Assembly: GCA_000687655.1 (NCBI GenBank)
Contig: JHWR01000001.1
Span: forward strand, 1 to 64,000
Direction of reading: 5' to 3'
Origin: Lachnospiraceae bacterium YSB2008
GTDB lineage: Bacteria > Bacillota > Clostridia > Lachnospirales > Lachnospiraceae
Length of the DNA: 64,000 bases
Positions within the stretch are counted from its first letter, which is position 1, and the number at the start of each line of letters is the position of its first letter. A model generated the notes under the pieces. That model worked only from the letters and a program-made list of their open reading frames with translations, did not search any database and was not told the DNA's origin. Below are positions 14,185 to 56,791 of the stretch, one piece after another. Made by a program: the position numbers and the translations under genes.

Positions 14185-14613
14185 TCACTTTGTCTTCTGG
14201 TTATCTATATATTTTTTTGCTTGTTCAAGCGTCCTGTCACTTACTGTAGCAACAAAATATGATGGGTTCCAAAGATGTCCACCCCAGAGTTTTTTCTTTA
14301 GCTCCGGATGTGCCAGGAATAACCATCTTGCCGTATTGCCCTTTAATATTTTAATTGCGTCCGACAAACGCAGCTGTGGTTTACAGTCCACAAGAAGATG
14401 TATATGATCCGGCATTATCTCCATTGCAATAGGTACCATATCTAAAGATTTAAGTGTTTCAAGAAGATAATTTCTGACATCCTTCTCTATTTCACCTACA
14501 AATATGGGTTTTCTATACTTTGTAACCCATACGATATGATACTGCAAAGAGTATATATATCCTCGACCATGTGTAACATCTTTAGGCATTGAGAAATACA
14601 CTGTTTTATCCAT
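14185..14613 (-). CDS. tnpA: TnpA, Y1 HUH transposase of the IS605-type element
   Basis: The 142-residue protein is full length and looks active. The HUH motif is His70-Ile-His72 in MPDHIHLLVD, and the nucleophile is Tyr135 in KKYIDNQ, with Gln139 four residues on as in IS608 TnpA. YHIVWVTKYRKPIF is the family core strand and LWGGHLWNPSYFVATV precedes the catalytic helix. It excises and inserts the element as single-stranded DNA. The start ATG at 14613 has no clear Shine-Dalgarno, and a TATAAT lies only a few bases upstream, so translation may be leaderless. tnpB starts 30 bases downstream. Confidence 0.95.
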   Translation of the reverse strand: MDKTVYFSMPKDVTHGRGYIYSLQYHIVWVTKYRKPIFVGEIEKDVRNYLLETLKSLDMVPIAMEIMPDHIHLLVDCKPQLRLSDAIKILKGNTARWLFLAHPELKKKLWGGHLWNPSYFVATVSDRTLEQAKKYIDNQKTK

Positions 14614-28053: not shown

Positions 28054-28136
28054 TGCGGATAACAGGAGTTGAACCTGCACGGGAGTACCCCACTAGAACC
28101 TAAATCTAGCGCGTCTGCCAATTCCGCCATATCCGC
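28054..28136 (-). tRNA. tRNA-Leu (anticodon TAG)
   Basis: Class II tRNA of 83 bases with a long variable arm. The acceptor GCGGATA pairs with TATCCGC, with discriminator A. The anticodon stem CTAGA encloses a loop TTTAGGT. No CCA is encoded. Confidence 0.95.
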
Positions 28137-28214
28137 GTATAAAAATCTTTTATAGTTTTATGTGTAAATTTCGAGTAAAAAAATAAGTGAGCAGTACTCC
28201 TGCTCACATCTTAG

Positions 28215-28287
28215 TGAACCACGCGGGAATCGAACCCGCGACAACTTGATTAAAAGTCAAGTGCTCTACCGACTGAGCTAGTGGTCC
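28215..28287 (-). tRNA. tRNA-Lys (anticodon TTT)
   Basis: Cloverleaf of 73 bases: acceptor GGACCAC with GTGGTTC (one G-T pair), D-arm AGCTCAG, anticodon loop CTTTTAA, discriminator A. No CCA is encoded. Confidence 0.95.
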
Positions 28288-28294
28288 AGAATAT

Positions 28295-28366
28295 CTGGGC
28301 TAGTTGGATTCGAACCAACGAATGCAGGAGTCAAAGTCCTGTGCCTTACCGCTTGGCTATAGCCCA
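28295..28366 (-). tRNA. tRNA-Gln (anticodon TTG)
   Basis: Cloverleaf of 72 bases with 5' T as usual for tRNA-Gln: acceptor TGGGCTA with TAGCCCA, anticodon loop CTTTGAC, T-loop TTCGAAT, discriminator G. No CCA is encoded. Confidence 0.95.
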
Positions 28367-28412
28367 TTGTTGCTAAAGCCAGGCTTCTACAGGCTTTGAC
28401 TTTGCAAAGCAG

Positions 28413-28487
<75 letters not shown>

Positions 28488-28499
28488 ATAATAAATAAG

Positions 28500-28698
28500 T
28501 CCCCATAAGGGACTAATTGGCACCAACCCCGCATTAGGCATCGGAACTGTTTTGCGGTGCCATATGTGCTGCGCGATCCTGCCCATTTGGCACCAACCCC
28601 GCTTCGCGGTGTTGATTCTGCTAAGCAGAATGTCTGCGCTTCGCGCAGGTGTCCTCGCTGCGCTCGGATCCTCGATGCACTTCGTGCATCGGGACTAT
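28500..28698. repeat. Hairpin-rich spacer with a 16-base direct repeat inside the tRNA array
   Basis: This 199-base spacer between tRNA-His and tRNA-Arg carries TTGGCACCAACCCCGC twice (28517-28532, 28587-28602). It also packs several short palindromes: AGTCCC/GGGACT, ATTCTGCTAAGCAGAAT, GCGCTTCGCGC and TGCACTTCGTGCA. It is much more G+C-rich than other spacers here. There is no open frame of note. It may hold processing or RNA-stability elements, or be a decayed repeat. Confidence 0.6.
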
Positions 28699-28772
<74 letters not shown>

Positions 28773-28778
28773 AAGAAA

Positions 28779-28849
28779 AGCGGGTGATGGGAATCGAACC
28801 CACGTATCTAGCTTGGAAGGCTAGTGTTCTACCATTGAACTACACCCGC
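28779..28849 (-). tRNA. tRNA-Gly (anticodon TCC)
   Basis: Cloverleaf of 71 bases: acceptor GCGGGTG with CACCCGC, anticodon loop CTTCCAA, discriminator T. No CCA is encoded. Confidence 0.95.
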
Positions 28850-28873
28850 AAATTAATGCTAAAATGTATCGGA

Positions 28874-28949
28874 GTCGGGGTGACAGGATTCGAACCTGCG
28901 ACCTCCTGATCCCAAATCAGGCGCTCTAGCCAAGCTGAGCCACACCCCG
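28874..28949 (-). tRNA. tRNA-Pro (anticodon TGG)
   Basis: Cloverleaf of 76 bases: acceptor CGGGGTG with CACCCCG, anticodon loop TTTGGGA, T-loop TTCGAAT, discriminator A. First tRNA after the promoter at 28999-29027. No CCA is encoded. Confidence 0.95.
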
Positions 28950-28998
28950 ATGTCGGTCTCTCACTTTCAGGCTAAAGCCTTTTCGTAAAGCAAGAGTT

Positions 28999-29027
28999 AT
29001 TATACATAAACACTGTTTCAGTGTCAA
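28999..29027 (-). promoter_or_regulatory. Consensus promoter of the seven-tRNA unit
   Basis: Minus strand: exact consensus -35 TTGACA (29027-29022), 17-base spacer, exact -10 TATAAT (29004-28999). It lies between tRNA-Met and tRNA-Pro and drives Pro, Gly, Arg, His, Gln, Lys and Leu. Confidence 0.9.
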
Positions 29028-29062
29028 TGATTTTGAAGCATATAATTATTAATTATATGGAA

Positions 29063-29136
29063 TAGCGGGAGGGGGATTTGAACCCTCGACACCGCGGGTA
29101 TGAACCGCGTGCTCTAGCCAACTGAGCTATCCCGCC
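29063..29136 (-). tRNA. Elongator tRNA-Met (anticodon CAT)
   Basis: Cloverleaf of 74 bases: acceptor GGCGGGA with TCCCGCT (a G-T end pair), anticodon stem CGCGG with loop TTCATAC. It lacks the unpaired 1-72 C and the three G-C pairs of initiator tRNA, so it is the elongator form; a CAT-type tRNA-Ile is less likely but not excluded. No CCA is encoded. Confidence 0.9.
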
Positions 29137-29161
29137 ATAAGCGCTCTTTTAAGAAATTGGA

Positions 29162-29234
29162 TGGGGCCTACAGGGCTCGAACCTGTGACCCTCTGCTTGT
29201 AAGGCAGATGCTCTCCCAGCTGAGCTAAGACCCC
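29162..29234 (-). tRNA. tRNA-Val (anticodon TAC)
   Basis: Cloverleaf of 73 bases: acceptor GGGGTCT with AGGCCCC, D-arm AGCTCAGCTGGGAGAGC, anticodon loop CTTACAA, discriminator A. No CCA is encoded. Confidence 0.95.
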
Positions 29235-47822: not shown

Positions 47823-47854
47823 ATGACAGCCTGATAAAAGTATCAGGCCGTCAT
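47823..47854 (-). terminator. Probable terminator of superoxide dismutase
   Basis: Minus strand: ATGAC and GTCAT outer pairing, GCCTGATA/TATCAGGC inner stem with a 4-base loop, then CTTTAG. It starts nine bases after the sod stop. Confidence 0.6.
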
Positions 47855-47863
47855 ATATTGTTA

Positions 47864-48481
47864 CTATCCAACTATTGCTTCATAATTTGCCAGAACCTTG
47901 TTCCAGTCTACTATACTCCAGTACTCTTTGATATAAGCAGGTCTGAGATTCTTATACTTAAGGTAATAAGCATGCTCCCAAACATCAAGTGCGAGTATAG
48001 GTATGAAATCAGTTCCTTCACTTATAGGATTGTCCTGGTTTGGAGAAGCAGACAGCATAAGCTCTCCCGCTTTATTAGCTGAAAGAAATGCCCAGCCTGA
48101 ACCAAACTGTCCTGCAGCTGCAGCAGACATCTTCTCTACAAATGCATCGAAGCTTCCGAATGTTTCATCAATCTTTTCAGCAAGTTTTCCTACAGGAGTT
48201 CTTGGACCATCAGGTGAAAATGCTGCAAAATAAAGATTGTGGTTATAATAACCGCCGCCGTTATTTCTTATACCCTTTCTGAGAGTCTCATCCTCTATCT
48301 TATCGAGAGAACCGAGCAGCTCAACTATATCCATGTCAGCTACTCCTGCCTTCTCTGCAAGAGTGTTGAGTGTATTGGTGTAATTTGCATGATGCTTGCC
48401 ATAATGAGTCTCTACTGTGAGAGTATCGATCACCGGTTCCAATGCATCCATCCCATACTCAAGTTTTACCTGTTCAAACAT
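47864..48481 (-). CDS. sodA: Iron/manganese superoxide dismutase
   Basis: Sod converts superoxide to oxygen and hydrogen peroxide. The 205-residue protein has metal ligands in THYGKHHANYTNTL (first His), GYYNHNLYFAAFSP (second His) and LDVWEHAYYLKYKN (Asp and third His). Length is usual for the Fe/Mn family; whether it uses Fe or Mn cannot be read by eye. For a gut anaerobe it is an oxygen-defence gene. AGGAGG precedes the ATG by 9 bases. It is followed by a hairpin. Confidence 0.97.
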   Translation of the reverse strand: MFEQVKLEYGMDALEPVIDTLTVETHYGKHHANYTNTLNTLAEKAGVADMDIVELLGSLDKIEDETLRKGIRNNGGGYYNHNLYFAAFSPDGPRTPVGKLAEKIDETFGSFDAFVEKMSAAAAGQFGSGWAFLSANKAGELMLSASPNQDNPISEGTDFIPILALDVWEHAYYLKYKNLRPAYIKEYWSIVDWNKVLANYEAIVG

Positions 48482-48514: not shown

Positions 48515-50287
48515 TTATGCTACAACTGTTCTGTTTCTTCCTGCTTCTTTTGCAGAGTACAGAGCATTATCAACCTTAGTATAATTCTCCTGACGGTTAC
48601 CCTTACCATCAGAACATATCATTCCGATACTGACCGTAATCCTTTCAACATCAGGGAACACATGCTCTTCAACCTTCTTTCGAAGAGACTCAGCGAAGTT
48701 ATAACCTGCCTCCTCATCGATATCCGGTATGATAGCTACGAATTCCTCGCCGCCCCATCTTCCTACATTTCCATTGCGAAGCTTAACCGTTTCATCAAGT
48801 ATTCCTGCAAACTCCACCAGGACTTCATCTCCGACTCTGTGTCCAAATGTGTCGTTGACGTCCTTGAAATGATCTATATCCATCATCATGAGTACTGCAG
48901 TTGAATTCTTATGAGAAGCATTGTTCAGCCTTGCATTTATAACTTCTTCTATCTTACGTCTGTTGAATATAGATGTAAGATCGTCATAATCAGCCATACG
49001 TCGAAGTCTTCTGTTAAGCTCACTCATCTGATCGAATGCTTTCTGAAGTTCAGACGTCGTAGATGAAACAAGCTTGGTAAGTCTCTTCAGAAGCGAAGCC
49101 TGACCTTTAAGAACTGAATCATCAACTATAGGGTAGTTTGTAATCTTGCCCTTCTTATCGCCTTCTCTCATTCCTACTGAAAGCATGGTGATATTGTATT
49201 CATAGAGCTTTCCATTTTCAGGATTTCTCTTAACTTCACCCCATGTATAGAATCCGGCTGTCTCCGCAATCTCCTGGAAAGGCCTGACCTCTATCTCAGC
49301 GAAGCTCTCCCAGAACGACTTTCTTACGGAACATGAATATAGAAGCACAACCTCAGGTTCAAAATCCGCCATGGCTATGAGTCTGTGATTAACCATATCC
49401 ACTATGGAATCCGGATTACCGTATGAAAGATATATATCCATTCCTTCCTGAACATATCCGGCCAGGAGAAGTGTTCCGTCGTCTTCTACAGTTATGGTAT
49501 GACGAAGAAGTTCCTCATTATCCATACTCGCATCGAGCGGAAACTCGAAGGTTTCTTCTGCGAAATTATCACCGGCACCTATATGAAGATATTTATCATA
49601 TACCTCTATAGCAGGCTTTCCGTTTATTTCCATCAGCCTGTTTCCGTCTGCCTTTGTTATCTTGAAAGGCCTACCAAGTTTCTCCCAGCCCGCCGACTTC
49701 TCAACATCAACATGAAGGTTCTTTCCGGAATAAACTATGGCATAAACCGCATCGAAATCAATTCCGTCATAATTGAAAATGAAATGCTCACTCTTATCCA
49801 GGCTGTGACCACCGGAGTATCCGCCAAACACAGATACTTCGTTAGGAAGGGCTTCGAGTTCATTCAGAAATGCCGCTGTATTGAATTCCGTTCCCGGCAT
49901 AAGAAGCTCTACCGACTGAACATTCTCAATGCCCGAGACTTCCTTAACTATCATCTCACCGGTGTTCTTCTCATTGTCCTTGACATCTATATATCTGAGA
50001 ACACGAGCTTCTGATTGTTTAAACAGCATGAGCGTTGCAACCATACCTTTAGGCGGAATCTCATCTTCGATTATCTCTCCTGCAGAGAGAGTTCCAACCA
50101 TAGGAATGCCCGGAAGTTCATCAATAAGCATCCTCAAATACGAACGTATTTCACTTGCATCTTCAATGCCGCTGTATACATGGAGCAGCTTGCTCTTATA
50201 CTTTCCCCTGGCAAGCTCTCTCTTCGCCTTCTCGATATCTTTTTTAAATTCCGTATGATTATAAATATTGATCAGTATCTGTTTCAT
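48515..50287 (-). CDS. FIST-domain sensor diguanylate cyclase (GGDEF)
   Basis: The 590-residue soluble protein has an N-terminal FIST domain (about residues 20-230), a FIST-C domain (about 235-375, with TAGFYTWGEV), a helical linker and a GGDEF domain (about 425-590). The active site is intact as RWGGEEFVAIIPD, and YDDLTSIFNRRKIEEV begins the domain. FIST domains bind small ligands, perhaps amino acids, and control the output. This one would make cyclic-di-GMP on a cytoplasmic signal. I start at the ATG at 50287 with GGGGG upstream rather than the GTG at 50302. It is last in the GGDEF-EAL/GH3/clostripain cluster. Confidence 0.95.
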   Translation of the reverse strand: MKQILINIYNHTEFKKDIEKAKRELARGKYKSKLLHVYSGIEDASEIRSYLRMLIDELPGIPMVGTLSAGEIIEDEIPPKGMVATLMLFKQSEARVLRYIDVKDNEKNTGEMIVKEVSGIENVQSVELLMPGTEFNTAAFLNELEALPNEVSVFGGYSGGHSLDKSEHFIFNYDGIDFDAVYAIVYSGKNLHVDVEKSAGWEKLGRPFKITKADGNRLMEINGKPAIEVYDKYLHIGAGDNFAEETFEFPLDASMDNEELLRHTITVEDDGTLLLAGYVQEGMDIYLSYGNPDSIVDMVNHRLIAMADFEPEVVLLYSCSVRKSFWESFAEIEVRPFQEIAETAGFYTWGEVKRNPENGKLYEYNITMLSVGMREGDKKGKITNYPIVDDSVLKGQASLLKRLTKLVSSTTSELQKAFDQMSELNRRLRRMADYDDLTSIFNRRKIEEVINARLNNASHKNSTAVLMMMDIDHFKDVNDTFGHRVGDEVLVEFAGILDETVKLRNGNVGRWGGEEFVAIIPDIDEEAGYNFAESLRKKVEEHVFPDVERITVSIGMICSDGKGNRQENYTKVDNALYSAKEAGRNRTVVA

Positions 50288-50316
50288 ACGCTGAGCCCCC
50301 ACAACTCTCGATTCAT

Positions 50317-52710
50317 TTACTTATCGATAGCTTCTGTCCAGTACTCCTGATTATAAATATCAGTGAATCTGTATGTTATCTTAATCGGACCTGTTCCTAC
50401 GTCAGTATTACTGATAAGAATATCCGGTTCATATATTACAGGCTCGCCGAGCTTATAGGTATCCTGGTAAACTCCCTCATATGAGTAGAAGTCACACAGG
50501 AACTGTATACTTGTTCCCTCAGGAATCTCTGTTATTGTCTTTCCTTCTATAGGGTTCTCATCATCAGTACAGAAAGGAGCTGCTCCTGCTATATATCCAT
50601 GTGGATGAGCATTATCGAATACAAGTATTATATTCACTCTCTCATCATCTATCATGGCAGGAACTCGACCTGTGATTGTATAATTCTCACCATCATCCTC
50701 TGTTGATTCTCTGTAGTAAGCAACAGGCTGACTGTCTATAGCAAGCCAGGTTCTGTCTGTTGATGCGACAAGCTTACCGTCCTCAACATCATATACATTA
50801 TCGAGACCCATATCTACATAGCCTTCTCCGTCATCATAGAACATGTTCATATCTATAGCATGAACAAGATCCCACTGAGCATCAGGAAGTGAAAGCAGAT
50901 ACTTGTCTCCATCCTGCTCCCACTTAAGGTTTGTAGTATCAAAATAATTAGCTGAAATATAGTCCGCTGCAGCTTCATTTGAAACATCACTGTCACTCAT
51001 GAATCCGATGTTATCAGAATCAAGTCCGTCTATAGGAGTGCTTCTTCCACCTGTAAGGAAGGAACCAAGAAGCTGACCTATCATATCGGAATCTCCGCCT
51101 GAAGATGTTCCGCCAAATGAACCGCCAAGAAGTGATGAAAGTGGTGTTCCTGTACCACCTGCAGATACCTGACCTGCTGTCTCAAGCTTAGCAAAGCCCT
51201 TGATAGCCTTGGTATACTCAGGATCCATTCCTATATCATCATAAGTCTTGCTTACTGTATCAACATATGAAGCCCTCTTGTAAGGGAAGTATATTGATAC
51301 ACCGTAAGCCTTAGTCATCGATGCTGATGTACGGTTATACTTAACTGCTCCTGTAAGAGCTTCTGCAAGAGCCTTTCCTTCATCATTTCCGACATTATTA
51401 GCAAGATCAACAAGGTCAACCTGATCGATCTTTGAGCTTGTAGCAAATTCTCTGGTCAGATATCTTGCATTTGAAACATCCTTGTAATCATTTGAAGATA
51501 TCTTGTTGTTGATAGACTTTGAGAATGCTGTAAGCTTGGATGGAACAGTATTTGAGAATTCAGCCAGATCTATGATTGAAAGAGTTGTCTTCTGTCCGCC
51601 GCACTTACGGTTACATTCATTTACGAAACCATCTATGATATTCTTGCCTATCTCTGTAGTAGGCATGGATGTATTCTCAGAAAGCTTATTCAGCCAGTCT
51701 GTGTAATACCAGCCTATTCCCGGCTCAGTCTCTTCTGATGCTATCATGTAATCTGCATGCTTATCCATCATAAGGGCTGTCTCTGCAGTAGCCATAAGAC
51801 ATGCATCAAATCCTACGAAGTCAAATGTAACGCCGCCGGCTGTAAGAGCCTTATTGATGTTACTGAGATTCATTGAACCACTGGTCTTATACTTCTCATC
51901 ATAACCATATCCACTTACTGATCCGCCGCCGTGATCCCAGAGTATGAGTTCATATCTGTCAGCCGGATAATTCGAAGCGCCCCACTTAATGAAGCTTGAA
52001 AGTGTATTTGGGTCAGTCATAGGCTTAGCACCGTCGTCAGCAACAAGCTGCTTGATACCGCCCTTCTGAACCTTATATATCTGATTTACCTTATTTGAGA
52101 TACCGTTTGTCTTCCAGCCGTTACATCCACCTGTGTAAACAATGATATTGATCTTGTCACTGAGGTTTGAAGCTGCCATCTCACCAAGGTCATTTGAAGC
52201 CATACCATGCTTTGACTCAAGATCTGTACCACACATATATACAAGTATGGTTATAGTATCCTGACCGCCGCCTACTATGGCAGTTCTCTTTGCACGAGAG
52301 CCCTCTGCTACAGAAGTATCAAGCTGAACGTTTGAATTATCTGTATATGGAGCAGTTGTCTGTCCACCATTGTTTCCACCAAGGTCACTTATGAAGTCAT
52401 ATCCTGATCCTGTTCCGCCGGTATTACCGGTGCCGCTCACTCCTGATCCGTCATAGCCACCGCTGTTACCGCCCAGACCGCCTTTGAGAAGGAAGAATAT
52501 GATTATGATCACGATTATGAGACCGCTTCCGCCGCCTGCTGCTGCACGCTTAACTCCACCGCCGCTGCTGCTTCCGCCTGATGGTCTTCCCGCGTAACCA
52601 TTGCTGCTTCCTACCGGACCGCCGCCTATGCCACTGCCCTGCTTATGTACGCCTTTGCTTCCCTGTGTTACATACTTGTCTCTGCTTCTTGGTGCATTCG
52701 GTGCTCCCAT
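50317..52710 (-). CDS. Membrane-anchored clostripain-family (C11) cysteine peptidase
   Basis: The 797-residue protein has a Gly/Ser-rich start, a TM helix (about residues 61-78, GLIIVIIIIFFLLKGG), a Gly-rich linker, and a C11 peptidase domain (about 145-500). The catalytic His is in LILWDHGGGSVSGYG and the Cys in VGFDACLMATAETAL. A beta-rich C-terminal domain (about 560-797) is acidic. Clostripains cut after Arg and are usually secreted or surface-bound. It lies between the GH3 gene (14 bases upstream) and the FIST-GGDEF gene (29 bases downstream), so is probably cotranscribed. Confidence 0.93.
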   Translation of the reverse strand: MGAPNAPRSRDKYVTQGSKGVHKQGSGIGGGPVGSSNGYAGRPSGGSSSGGGVKRAAAGGGSGLIIVIIIIFFLLKGGLGGNSGGYDGSGVSGTGNTGGTGSGYDFISDLGGNNGGQTTAPYTDNSNVQLDTSVAEGSRAKRTAIVGGGQDTITILVYMCGTDLESKHGMASNDLGEMAASNLSDKINIIVYTGGCNGWKTNGISNKVNQIYKVQKGGIKQLVADDGAKPMTDPNTLSSFIKWGASNYPADRYELILWDHGGGSVSGYGYDEKYKTSGSMNLSNINKALTAGGVTFDFVGFDACLMATAETALMMDKHADYMIASEETEPGIGWYYTDWLNKLSENTSMPTTEIGKNIIDGFVNECNRKCGGQKTTLSIIDLAEFSNTVPSKLTAFSKSINNKISSNDYKDVSNARYLTREFATSSKIDQVDLVDLANNVGNDEGKALAEALTGAVKYNRTSASMTKAYGVSIYFPYKRASYVDTVSKTYDDIGMDPEYTKAIKGFAKLETAGQVSAGGTGTPLSSLLGGSFGGTSSGGDSDMIGQLLGSFLTGGRSTPIDGLDSDNIGFMSDSDVSNEAAADYISANYFDTTNLKWEQDGDKYLLSLPDAQWDLVHAIDMNMFYDDGEGYVDMGLDNVYDVEDGKLVASTDRTWLAIDSQPVAYYRESTEDDGENYTITGRVPAMIDDERVNIILVFDNAHPHGYIAGAAPFCTDDENPIEGKTITEIPEGTSIQFLCDFYSYEGVYQDTYKLGEPVIYEPDILISNTDVGTGPIKITYRFTDIYNQEYWTEAIDK

Positions 52711-52724
52711 TCTGTCACCTCCAT

Positions 52725-54092
52725 CTAACTCTTAAGCTTAAGCTTTGCTTCTATGATTCTTCTTACAGAATCGTCTATCCTGTCTTCAGATATCTTTCCG
52801 TCTTTGACCGCCTGTATGACTCCGTCTGCTGCAGCCTTAACATCAGGCGGATCAAGTATCATATCATTACCTGCCTGTACTGCAAGAACTGCAGCATCTC
52901 CGGCAGAGTATTCATTTGTTATTGCCTTCATAACCATGGAATCGGTTATGATAATTCCTTCATACTCCAGATCGTTCCTGAGTATATCGGTAACAACCTT
53001 CTTGGATAATGAGCATGGTTTCTTATCTCCGGTAACTGATGGAAGAGATATATGAGCTACCATTATGAACTCCACGCCCTTTTCATTTGCACTCATGTAA
53101 GGGATGAGTTCGGATTTCTTAAGATCATCATAGGTCTTATCTACATCAGCATAGCCATTATGTGTATCTCCGGATACAGCTCCGTGTCCCGGGAAGTGTT
53201 TATATACACTCAGTATTCCATGTGAATGGAGTCCGTCGGAATATGCTCCTGCAAACTCTGTAACCTTCTTCGGATCGTCCCCGAAGGAACGGTCACCTAT
53301 AATGGTGCTGTTAGGATTTGTAAGAACATCTGCAACCGGTGCGAGATCAACATTGAACCCCAGCTCCTTAAGATAGGTTCCTATGGTATCACCCGCCTTA
53401 TAGGCCTCATCCTTGTCTTTGATATCCTTCATAGGACCTACGTTATCGATACCAAACTCTCCGGTATTTGCTATCCTGGCAACCTTTCCGCCCTCTTCAT
53501 CTACCGAGAGAAAGAGGGGTAAGCCTTCTACTTCCTTTGCAAATTTCTGAGTATTAGAAAGCATCTCCTTTGTCTGCTCGGCATTTATAAGGCTTCTGCC
53601 CATATAGAGTATGCCGCCTACAGGCTTCTCTGTAAGGGCCTGCTTGGTCGCATCACCTGCAACAGTCGCAACGCTTACGCCCGTAAGAGTTTCAGGAGTG
53701 ACCATGAACATCTGATATACCTTCTGTTCAAGAGACATATCCGCAAGAATCTTGTCTGCTTCACTGTCAGATCCCTTGTCAGTCTTATCGTCCTTTTCGG
53801 TAGAACCTTCTTCTTTAGTCTTATCGCCCGGAAGCACTATCTCATCATCATTCATGAATTTGGTAGTTGCTTCAGTCGAGGCCACCTCGCTCGCATCCGT
53901 ATCCGAACCGGGATCCATATTTTCTCTGCTGTTCTGATTTTCTATGCCCATCTTTTCTCTGTCAGAAACTGATGTAATACTCTTATTTTTGGAGCTTAGA
54001 AAAACCGTAAGCAGCAGAGCTACTACTGAAAAACATATGATTATGATATTTCTTGTCAGAACTCTTCTGTTTGTTTTTTTCTTCTTTGCCAT
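52725..54092 (-). CDS. GH3-family beta-N-acetylhexosaminidase (NagZ-like), membrane anchored
   Basis: The 455-residue protein has a TM or signal anchor (about residues 13-32, NIIIICFSVVALLLTVFLSS), an acidic linker rich in Asp, Ser and Thr, then a GH3 catalytic domain (about 115-450). Family features are LPLFLSVDEEGGKVARI, the His-containing KHFPGHGAVSGDTHNGY with the DTH acid/base pair, and the nucleophile Asp in IITDSMVM. NagZ removes N-acetylglucosamine from muropeptides; here the enzyme faces outside. Closely linked to the GGDEF-EAL gene 38 bases upstream and the protease gene downstream. Confidence 0.93.
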   Translation of the reverse strand: MAKKKKTNRRVLTRNIIIICFSVVALLLTVFLSSKNKSITSVSDREKMGIENQNSRENMDPGSDTDASEVASTEATTKFMNDDEIVLPGDKTKEEGSTEKDDKTDKGSDSEADKILADMSLEQKVYQMFMVTPETLTGVSVATVAGDATKQALTEKPVGGILYMGRSLINAEQTKEMLSNTQKFAKEVEGLPLFLSVDEEGGKVARIANTGEFGIDNVGPMKDIKDKDEAYKAGDTIGTYLKELGFNVDLAPVADVLTNPNSTIIGDRSFGDDPKKVTEFAGAYSDGLHSHGILSVYKHFPGHGAVSGDTHNGYADVDKTYDDLKKSELIPYMSANEKGVEFIMVAHISLPSVTGDKKPCSLSKKVVTDILRNDLEYEGIIITDSMVMKAITNEYSAGDAAVLAVQAGNDMILDPPDVKAAADGVIQAVKDGKISEDRIDDSVRRIIEAKLKLKS

Positions 54093-54130
54093 TCTTGGTG
54101 CCCTGATAGGTCAGTAATCTATGGTTACTT

Positions 54131-56695
54131 TTATCTGTAAATGAAGTCATCAAGCTTTCTTTCGAACTCATCGACAGGAAGCGGTTTATCGAAATAATAT
54201 CCCTGTGCAAATTCGCACGCATTGTCCTTAAGTATGCTGAGCTGTTCTTCAGTCTCTACACCTTCAACTATACATTCAAGGCCTATACTCTGCGCCATCG
54301 CTACAACATACTTGAACATGAGCTTCTTCTCATCTGCAAGAAGATCTCCCGGAACAGGAAGGAAGCTCTTGTCGATCTTAAGAACATTCCATGGTATATC
54401 ACGAATAAGATTCAGTGATGAATAACCTATACCGAAGTCATCGACTGCGGTCATGATTCCATTTTCCTGAAGTCCTCTTACTATCCTCTTCAGATCATTG
54501 AACTCAACATCCGTCGTTGTCTCAGTAAGCTCTATCTCGATGAATTCGTGTGGAACCTTATACTTATCTATCGTTTCAAGTATGTGTTCAAGCAGGCCCA
54601 CATCTGCAAGATGTCTTCTTGAGAAGTTTACAGATACTCTGACCACTCTCTTACCCGCATCTATCCATCTTCTTATATCTCTGCATACATGCTCGAGCAT
54701 ATAGAAATCAAGCTCACATATCTCCTGATTCTTTTCAAGCATCGGTATGAACTCAGCCGGCATGATGAGTCTTTCATCATGTATCCAGCGGCAGAGTGCC
54801 TCTGCTCCGGAGAGTGAATTGTCATGCACGGAAATCTTCGGCTGATAGTATATAACGAATTCTTCATTCGCAATAGCTTCGCTGAAGGTTCCGGATACCA
54901 TAAGCTCCTGACGCTTATTCATAAGCATATGGTCATCGAAGTATATGATATCTCTCGTTCCATTTGACCTTGCAACATTGAGCGCTGTTGCAATTCTGTC
55001 CATGATATCCGAATGATTCTTGAAACTGTTTTCCTCAGGAATCTCGAAAACTCCTACATTAGCCGATACATTTACCCTGGAACCTGACAGTTCATCATAT
55101 AAAACAGATGCGCCGCTGAGTATTTCAAGTATGTCGTCAGCCTTTTCCTTATTTACAAACAGAACAAAGTTATCACCACCAACACGGGCAACGACTTCAT
55201 CCCTGGTCAGTTTTTCATCTATCATGTGAACATAGTTTTTCATAACCAGAGTTCCGGTATTTCTGCCGAGCTGCTGATTGATAACAGAGAACTTTTTCAG
55301 ATTAAAGAACATCGCTGTATAATCACCGGCCTTCTTTTCCTGAACCACTCTGTTAACATAGCTGATGAAGTATTTAATGTTGTGGATCTGAAGCTCATTA
55401 TCGTAGAACTTCATTCTTTCAGCCAGCTTCATAAGTCGGCTTCTGCCGTTCATAACATATATTATACGAATGAGATATTCTATTATATCCTTCTCATCAT
55501 CATTCCAGTCAGTCTCATCCTTCTTCTGATAAGCTGTATAGTATGCCACATTATAGCCTCTGGTAACATATCTGTTCTGTATTGTCCTTGACTGATCTTC
55601 GTCACCATCAACATAAAGGACAGCTGTACTTCCATTTCCTTTATGCTCTTCTTCAGCATTATCATAAAATGAAGTATCAAACTTAGCTATTCTCAGAGCC
55701 TTACAGATATCATCAAGAACTCCGTCATTTAACGGTCTGTCACTCAGCGGAAGTGCATCAAGTTTAAAGAACAGTACCCTTGCCATATCAAGAAGCTCTT
55801 CTCTGCTCTTTATCTCTGCTTCTTTCCTCTCAACCTTCTTCATGAACTTATCATGATGGCGTTTCTTCATTTCGTACATCCTGCTGTCGCCTTCATGTAT
55901 AAGTTCATCTATATTAATCTCTGTCCCTCTTCTCCTTGCGAGTCCCACGCTTATGGAAAGAGTCATATTGTCATCACTGAAGAGCGCTTCGACTTCCCTC
56001 GAAAAATCCTCTATCTTATAGTTCAGGAATTCCTCATCCAGCTCTTCATCTATAAGAACTGCAAACTCATCTCCGCCAAGTCTTACAACCTTATAATCCG
56101 GAAATGCATTTTTAATTATTTCAGCTGTTTCCTTTAATATCTCATCACCACGTGAATGGCCGTAATTATCATTTATATACTTGAAACCATCCAGATCGAG
56201 GTACATGAACGACCACAGATTGTTGGAATGATTCTGAAGGTATTCATACAGAAATCTTCTGTTATAGAGACCCGTAAGACTGTCAGTATTTGCCAGCATA
56301 TAGAGATTCTTCTCATAGCTTCTCTGATTGGTAGTATCACGGAAGAGAGCTATATAACCGGCTATGGTTTCCTGATCATCATAGACCTCTTGTATAGTCA
56401 GATAGAATGTCCTGCTGCTGCCTTTTCTGTATCTGAACTCCTGAGATACCGAATGTCTCTCTCTGTCTATATCAGAATTTGTTATAGGCTCCAGATATTC
56501 ATCCTTCCATTTCTTAAAGTTAAATGAATAGTTGTCCCCGTCTATCCCTGTAAGCTTATGAAAGAATTCATTTGCCTTCATAAGTCGCCAGTCAGCATCA
56601 GTAATTACCATGGGAAATGGAACGTTCTCCACGAGTATTCCCGACTCATCACATAGCTTTTCAAGTGCTGTTATGTCATATTTGATATCCAGCAT
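54131..56695 (-). CDS. PAS-GGDEF-GGDEF-EAL cyclic-di-GMP regulator
   Basis: The 854-residue protein lacks clear TM helices. It has an N-terminal PAS domain (about 20-125), a first GGDEF with intact RLGGDEFAVLID (about 130-290), a linker, a second GGDEF-like domain with the altered RVGGDNFVLFVN (about 430-590), and an EAL phosphodiesterase domain (about 600-845) with intact GAEALCRW, DDFGIGYSSLNLI and EGVETEEQ. It could both make and break cyclic-di-GMP; the second GGDEF is likely a regulatory pseudo-domain. GAGG lies upstream of the ATG. First gene of the cluster with GH3, clostripain and FIST-GGDEF. Confidence 0.95.
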   Translation of the reverse strand: MLDIKYDITALEKLCDESGILVENVPFPMVITDADWRLMKANEFFHKLTGIDGDNYSFNFKKWKDEYLEPITNSDIDRERHSVSQEFRYRKGSSRTFYLTIQEVYDDQETIAGYIALFRDTTNQRSYEKNLYMLANTDSLTGLYNRRFLYEYLQNHSNNLWSFMYLDLDGFKYINDNYGHSRGDEILKETAEIIKNAFPDYKVVRLGGDEFAVLIDEELDEEFLNYKIEDFSREVEALFSDDNMTLSISVGLARRRGTEINIDELIHEGDSRMYEMKKRHHDKFMKKVERKEAEIKSREELLDMARVLFFKLDALPLSDRPLNDGVLDDICKALRIAKFDTSFYDNAEEEHKGNGSTAVLYVDGDEDQSRTIQNRYVTRGYNVAYYTAYQKKDETDWNDDEKDIIEYLIRIIYVMNGRSRLMKLAERMKFYDNELQIHNIKYFISYVNRVVQEKKAGDYTAMFFNLKKFSVINQQLGRNTGTLVMKNYVHMIDEKLTRDEVVARVGGDNFVLFVNKEKADDILEILSGASVLYDELSGSRVNVSANVGVFEIPEENSFKNHSDIMDRIATALNVARSNGTRDIIYFDDHMLMNKRQELMVSGTFSEAIANEEFVIYYQPKISVHDNSLSGAEALCRWIHDERLIMPAEFIPMLEKNQEICELDFYMLEHVCRDIRRWIDAGKRVVRVSVNFSRRHLADVGLLEHILETIDKYKVPHEFIEIELTETTTDVEFNDLKRIVRGLQENGIMTAVDDFGIGYSSLNLIRDIPWNVLKIDKSFLPVPGDLLADEKKLMFKYVVAMAQSIGLECIVEGVETEEQLSILKDNACEFAQGYYFDKPLPVDEFERKLDDFIYR

Positions 56696-56791
56696 ATCCC
56701 CACCTCAATAATGTTTCAAAACACGAAAATCACAGAGTACATTTTCACTCTGCATACATAGAAACATTTTATCACAAACAAAGTTCATTTT

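Follow-up and report, generated by a model that had tools for sequence, protein, structure and literature searches.

The first 64,000 nucleotides of contig JHWR01000001.1 of Lachnospiraceae bacterium YSB2008 (probably a rumen-type member of this family; assembly GCA_000687655.1; this stretch is hereafter called the window) contain a minus-strand row of four closely spaced genes. In the order of transcription they encode a PAS-GGDEF-GGDEF-EAL protein, the predicted phosphodiesterase (PDE) of cyclic diguanosine monophosphate (c-di-GMP), a glycoside hydrolase of the GH3 family, a peptidase of the C11 family, and a FIST-FIST_C-GGDEF protein. The explanation that we prefer, with a probability of roughly one half, is an operon specific to this lineage, through which a wall hexosaminidase and a surface protease are expressed along with a PDE and a cyclase, while c-di-GMP acts at a distance. 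A joint function of the row is plausible; control of the surface enzymes by c-di-GMP itself is treated as a possibility only, because most relatives lack the row.

We infer that the row yields one transcript, with the membrane orientation, activities, cues and output outlined here. The operon would have the order PDE, lectin (absent from the window), GH3, C11, FIST cyclase and superoxide dismutase, and would produce, besides a PDE and a diguanylate cyclase, two enzymes anchored in the membrane and facing outward. The NagZ-like hexosaminidase would act on wall or other N-acetylglucosamine sugars, and the clostripain-type protease on surface or nearby proteins. The PAS and FIST domains would sense intracellular cues and shift the level of c-di-GMP, which would most likely act remotely, for example via a riboswitch located before a pilin-like gene. 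Co-expression would thus couple the surface enzymes to c-di-GMP.

The gene row and its products

Genes, domains, residues, hydrophobic segments and riboswitch sites were computed directly from the DNA. A preliminary description of the window had listed the four genes with their positions and gaps of 38, 14 and 29 bases, and the open reading frame (ORF) list, Pfam and an alignment of 13 orthologues bear this out (Table 1). The last gap assumes that the FIST-GGDEF gene starts at 50287, as the alignment suggests for that ATG; a GTG 15 bases upstream (50302) would give a protein of 595 amino acids. Both the spacing and the common strand favour cotranscription of the four genes. The row probably extends into the superoxide dismutase gene, located on the same strand 33 bases past the FIST-GGDEF gene; Shine-Dalgarno-like sequences precede the C11 and dismutase genes. 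An extended -10-like motif lies ahead of the PDE gene, and motifs similar to it (TGnTAnAAT) were seen by eye at this place in two related genomes, G023 and G012 (3/3 species). Downstream of the dismutase gene, a 64-base stretch with a hairpin folds at -21.7 kcal/mol. Consensus scans for promoters and terminators are weak evidence; they gave 16 terminator-like sites vs 8.0 in shuffled sequences, with one weak site between the leucine-rich repeat (LRR) gene and the PDE gene, and the hairpin is not among the 16. The row occupies an intergenic spot between LRR/MoxR/VWA genes and hydrolase/RlmH genes.

Table 1. Features of the gene row in the window
Feature	Position	Strand	Remarks
PDE: PAS-like, GGDEF, degenerate GGDEF, EAL	54131..56695	-	854 amino acids; ORF list, Pfam
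GH3 beta-N-acetylhexosaminidase, NagZ-like	52725..54092	-	455 amino acids; ORF list, Pfam
Peptidase C11 (clostripain family)	50317..52710	-	797 amino acids; ORF list, Pfam
FIST-FIST_C-GGDEF	48515..50287	-	590 amino acids from conserved ATG; ORF list, Pfam
Fe/Mn superoxide dismutase; probably ends the transcription unit	47864..48481	-	Pfam
14-pair hairpin 3' of the dismutase gene, possible terminator with poor T tract	47823..47854	-	folding
Extended -10-like motif TGTGATAAAAT ahead of PDE	56766..56776	-	by eye

All domains proposed for the four proteins are supported by Pfam except PAS: the GGDEF, EAL, GH3, C11 and FIST assignments exceed their cut-offs, and the PAS assignment falls below them (PAS_8, 21.0 bits with a cut-off of 21.8; PAS_9, 21.4 bits with a cut-off of 27). 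The proposal that GH3 and C11 are surface enzymes agrees with hydropathy, which gives each protein one N-terminal membrane segment (Kyte-Doolittle 2.77 and 2.60, respectively) with more K+R than D+E on its N side. No hydrophobic segment was detected in the PDE and FIST-GGDEF proteins at a Kyte-Doolittle value of at least 1.6.

The EAL domain of the PDE (Pfam, 204.5 bits) has its catalytic residues intact. The positions E632, A633, L634, N690, E722, D752, D753, K773, E811 and Q831 are invariant in 3/3 aligned sequences. The first GGDEF domain retains the GGDEF motif, and the second one reads GGDNF in all three sequences. In the FIST-GGDEF protein the GGEEF motif is invariant (13/13 sequences), and inspection by eye of that protein revealed no RxxD inhibitory site.

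The GH3 protein (Pfam, 266 bits; NCBIfam PRK05337, 173 bits, under the cut-off of 207) has its membrane segment at about residues 16-34. Its motifs KHFPGHG-x4-D-x-H and TDSM are kept in 6/6 sequences; we take KH(F/I)PGHG-x4-D-x-H to be the motif of NagZ-type GH3 enzymes. The closest solved relative by sequence is a GH3 beta-N-acetylglucosaminidase (6k5j, E 2e-61).

Clostripain-family (C11) peptidases carry out Arg/Lys-directed proteolysis after an activation cleavage. The window protein belongs to this family (PF03415, 154.4 bits vs a cut-off of 25.8) with its dyad of H260 and C304 invariant in 36/36 sequences, and scores below the cut-off for clostripain sensu stricto (TIGR02806, 35.6 bits; cut-off 550). 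It is composed of a conserved N-terminal tail, a membrane segment at about 57-75, a caspase-like domain at about 150-440 and a C-terminal beta domain. Searching its structural model (mean predicted local distance difference test score, pLDDT, 78.1) with Foldseek gave 10 PDB matches under E 0.001, all of them C11 entries and 6n9j (E 4.4e-17) among them, and no match of its own for the C-terminal domain at that threshold. The tail (residues 7-36, window 52603-52692) precedes the membrane segment and is modelled with a mean pLDDT of 93 for residues 11-20 and 87 for residues 21-30. Thirty of the 36 sequences extend to residue 10; all 30 have the same residue at R10 and at G31. The tail motif was found in no other protein among the ORFs picked from 80 C11 loci, where single-sequence searches, which can miss genes, were used.

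Conservation of the row and of its parts

The row was compared across 61 genomes of the genus including the window genome (G000), which are 58-100% complete. In two other species, G023 and G012, the order PDE, GH3, C11 is retained with a lectin gene inserted. The GH3 proteins of the species with this order are 57-58% identical to that of the window, and in two species the FIST-GGDEF gene is in place, at 62% identity. The shared order argues for the operon explanation. In four further genomes (G002, G010, G018 and G036), all of them among the 12 described below that carry an EAL gene beside C11, a GH3 relative lies 4.8-7.5 kb from C11.

Other points weigh against this explanation. According to the preliminary description, failure of the genes to stay together in related genomes would refute its proposal, and this is largely what was observed: all four genes occur together in one of the 60 other genomes (G023) and three of the four in one more (G012), counts that are lower bounds because many of the genomes are drafts on short contigs. 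In G012 the FIST-GGDEF gene lies on another contig. Orthologues of this gene (at least 48% identity) are present in 13/60 genomes and sit at other sites in 12 of those 13; C11 orthologues (at least 55% identity) are present in 47/60 and, outside G023 and G012, likewise sit at other sites. A search of the window genome did not recover the lectin gene that accompanies GH3 elsewhere, the best match there being a zinc-ribbon stretch (E 8.4e-4), and no conserved neighbour of C11 was detected across the 78 usable loci described below. Promoter-like sites in the consensus scan barely exceed those in shuffles (49 vs 39.4, standard deviation 6.3), and the N_methyl match of the pilin-like gene that might serve as an output is marginal (Pfam, 21.7 bits; cut-off 21.2).

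A rival account is a row of passengers, in which abundant or mobile genes were stacked by chance in one intergenic spot and share a promoter at most, without a joint function. We regard this account as possible, though less probable than an operon. The window genome (2.69 Mb) has 32 GGDEF matches in 30 ORFs, which are generally clustered: eight GGDEF pairs lie within 8.2 kb vs 2.66 expected if the genes were evenly spread, so two close GGDEF genes are not rare here. The contents of the spot also vary among the three close species, the lectin gene being absent from G000, the FIST-GGDEF gene from G012, and the dismutase gene from both G023 and G012. The neighbours of C11 are not conserved, and only one c-di-GMP gene was found in 531 kb around 38 GH3-centred loci by three-round profiles (L159 and L160 of these rest on 38% matches, and L146 and L153 are from one genome). 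Against chance stacking stand the shared order in three species, the FIST-GGDEF gene in place in two, and the C11-GH3 proximity in the four genomes named above. The four-gene unit is a recent, young and shifting lineage-specific arrangement.

In a tree of 14 FIST-GGDEF orthologues with two paralogues as an outgroup, the window and G023 proteins group with those of G058 and G034, and the G012 copy groups with G030, G039 and G045; therefore, the row and its cyclase may differ in descent. Several other forms of this family were observed. A second FIST-GGDEF paralogue of the window genome (L162:9054-10826, contig C3) is 32% identical to the first and belongs to a group that many genomes of the genus share. 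In three genomes, FIST-GGDEF orthologues are directly downstream of FtsH-like genes (loci L100, L104 and L105; Pfam applied to L100 only), and in G037 (L101:5310-9374) FIST-GGDEF is fused in frame to FtsH, giving a protein of 1354 amino acids with AAA, M41, FIST and GGDEF domains. This fusion may be genuine or may stem from faulty assembly.

The module that recurs in the genus is the pair of lectin and GH3. The additional gene that separates PDE from GH3 in both G023 and G012 encodes a TPM/C-type-lectin protein and overlaps the GH3 gene by 8 bases. Its protein has a membrane segment, TPM and C-type lectin domains over the cut-off and a zinc-ribbon match under it. All ten lectin matches in the genus stronger than E 1e-12 are directly upstream of a GH3 relative. 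Among four further proteins (those of L143, L145, L149 and L141, the last truncated at the end of its contig), a VWA domain is present in L143, L145 and L149, and Lectin_C exceeds its cut-off in L141, L143 and L145. Elsewhere the GH3 neighbours include MatE, aminotransferase, IspD-like, epimerase, YceG and FHA genes (L126), GH94 and dehydrogenase genes (L152) or a tRNA synthetase gene (L150).

Riboswitches, and c-di-GMP genes near the C11 protease

The preliminary description proposed that the unit may control surface remodelling or adhesion through c-di-GMP. In a direct form of this proposal, c-di-GMP made and degraded here would set how much of the surface enzymes is present or how active they are, and hence adhesion or wall remodelling. 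A precedent exists in C. difficile, where c-di-GMP raises surface proteins that ZmpI (PPEP-1) releases (PMC6366702). The effectors that such control might use did not turn up here: no c-di-GMP riboswitch was found in the row at the gathering score (64-kb window, all Rfam families) or around it at E<=1 in 12 kb, and PilZ has no match in the window genome at E 0.001. Direct control thus loses ground, and we consider it unlikely. Class I c-di-GMP riboswitches (RF01051) occur in 53/61 genomes of the genus at E 0.001, and class II riboswitches were searched for in the window only. Both RF01051 sites of the window genome are outside the row: one precedes a helix-turn-helix ORF and helicase-like genes, an unusual regulon (L255:5778-8648, contig C6), and the other precedes the pilin-like gene, whose product matches the N_methyl motif of type IV pilins (L256:6460-7850). 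The latter order of riboswitch and pilin-like gene, the gene being judged by eye, recurs in G023 and G012 (L257:5446-6788 and L260:5835-7226). This is the kind of remote output that the operon explanation would use.

Gene neighbourhoods of C11 provide the other line of evidence for direct control. At least 578 C11 relatives were found in a contig scan, the best 80 of which were examined (78 usable); members of this genus are among the 80 loci, which leaves no outside control. The row is present, entirely or for the most part, at two of the 80 (L175 and L176). Within four genes of C11, no neighbour family is commoner than the ABC-like and the response-regulator-like ones, each found at 10/78 loci. 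A multi-pass membrane EAL protein (5-7 hydrophobic segments and intact EAL residues in the 11 aligned) is encoded head to head with C11 in 12 other members of the genus, and these are all 12 of its orthologues with at least 50% identity. Around 48 C11 loci of the genus, the 88.0 kb of flanking DNA at 0-1 kb contain ten c-di-GMP genes, compared with two in 326.2 kb at 3-8 kb. These counts come from three-round profiles built from the same loci, which can miss genes; the EAL gene of L290, probably because another frame was picked, is absent from the count and was found by the search for EAL orthologues. Other c-di-GMP enzymes also adjoin C11: a different EAL protein is head to head with it in L218 and L219 (24% identical to that of G010), a GGDEF gene is 24 bases downstream of it in L237, and an EAL gene is within about 100 bases upstream on the same strand in G333. 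The last case is the only one seen by eye among the listed relatives of one EAL protein compared with 52 C11 genomes.

The same neighbourhoods also speak against direct control. The 12-genome group supplies most of the density at 0-1 kb and is part of a wider synteny, in which the EAL-C11 pair is accompanied by lipoprotein-like (10/12 loci), response-regulator-like (9/12) and kinase-like (9/12) genes, so that persistence of the pair alone is no proof of selection; once this synteny had been found, a selected linkage was given less weight. In 4/12 genomes an extra ORF of 302-350 amino acids is called between the two genes. Relatives of the EAL protein with 41-42% identity occur in three genomes (G041, G047 and G017) without any C11 match, and among the 78 usable loci, G023 aside, just three have a c-di-GMP gene within about 300 bases of C11. 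Since different c-di-GMP enzymes are placed beside C11 more than once, one may go further and suppose that in rumen-type Clostridia c-di-GMP gates C11 as a surface protease, with its conserved N-terminal tail as the cytoplasmic contact, a functional Gram-positive counterpart of LapD/LapG; we judge this very improbable.

Further C11 proteins were noticed in the same survey. Anchored C11 proteins over 50% identical to that of the window are present in 13 records named Spirochaetota (L178, L180, L182, L185, L187, L188, L203, L208, L223, L235, L240, L247 and L250), which form one group in a FastTree phylogeny of 79 sequences, set off by a branch with support 98 and placed among Bacillota. Transfer between phyla is possible, as is the presence of stray contigs in the bins. 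At G008:C12:1136-4718 and G059:C196:19628-23525, the match to a second C11 paralogue, 34% identical, and the match to a GGDEF-EAL gene are about 1 kb apart. Elsewhere in the window, nine tRNA genes are clustered on the minus strand at 28054-29234, and the short ORFs at 2-301 and 14185-14613 presumably encode IS200/IS605-type transposases.

Relation to known systems and significance

Four known systems resemble parts of the row. Like C. difficile with PPEP-1, the window genome belongs to Clostridia, and in C. difficile c-di-GMP and the protease jointly set what stays on the surface (PMC6366702). However, that system uses a zinc protease, PPEP-1, and adhesins controlled by class II riboswitches, whereas here the protease is a C11 cysteine peptidase and the row has neither a riboswitch nor an adhesin gene.

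The LapD/LapG system connects a c-di-GMP protein with a cysteine protease that works outside the membrane. Unlike LapD, the window PDE has no membrane segment and keeps its EAL residues, scoring 119 bits with the NCBIfam LapD model (cut-off 1020), and its companion protease is of the C11 family. The intact active site and the lack of a membrane segment rule out a LapD-like role for this PDE.

The FIST domain is shared with NosP, in which it binds heme and senses nitric oxide; genes for a kinase and a regulator of the c-di-GMP type are often found next to the NosP gene (PMC12570481). In contrast, the window FIST is fused to GGDEF and scores 44.9 bits with the NosP model (NCBIfam, cut-off 450). 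The NagZ-type enzymes (6k5j and YbbD, 3bmx) share the GH3 domain and the His/Asp motif with the window GH3, which differs from them by its N-terminal membrane segment and by relatives with a lectin partner gene.

Among the open-licence papers listed in our searches, we found no description of the row and no title on c-di-GMP outputs in rumen-type Lachnospiraceae. At present, the row is best described as known families in a local arrangement. The comparison reveals a recurring lectin-hexosaminidase pair and a large family of anchored C11 proteases in Clostridia and Treponema, as the records are named in the deposits. A row that acts as one unit would connect the turnover of c-di-GMP with proteolysis at the surface and the trimming of wall sugars in rumen-type Lachnospiraceae.

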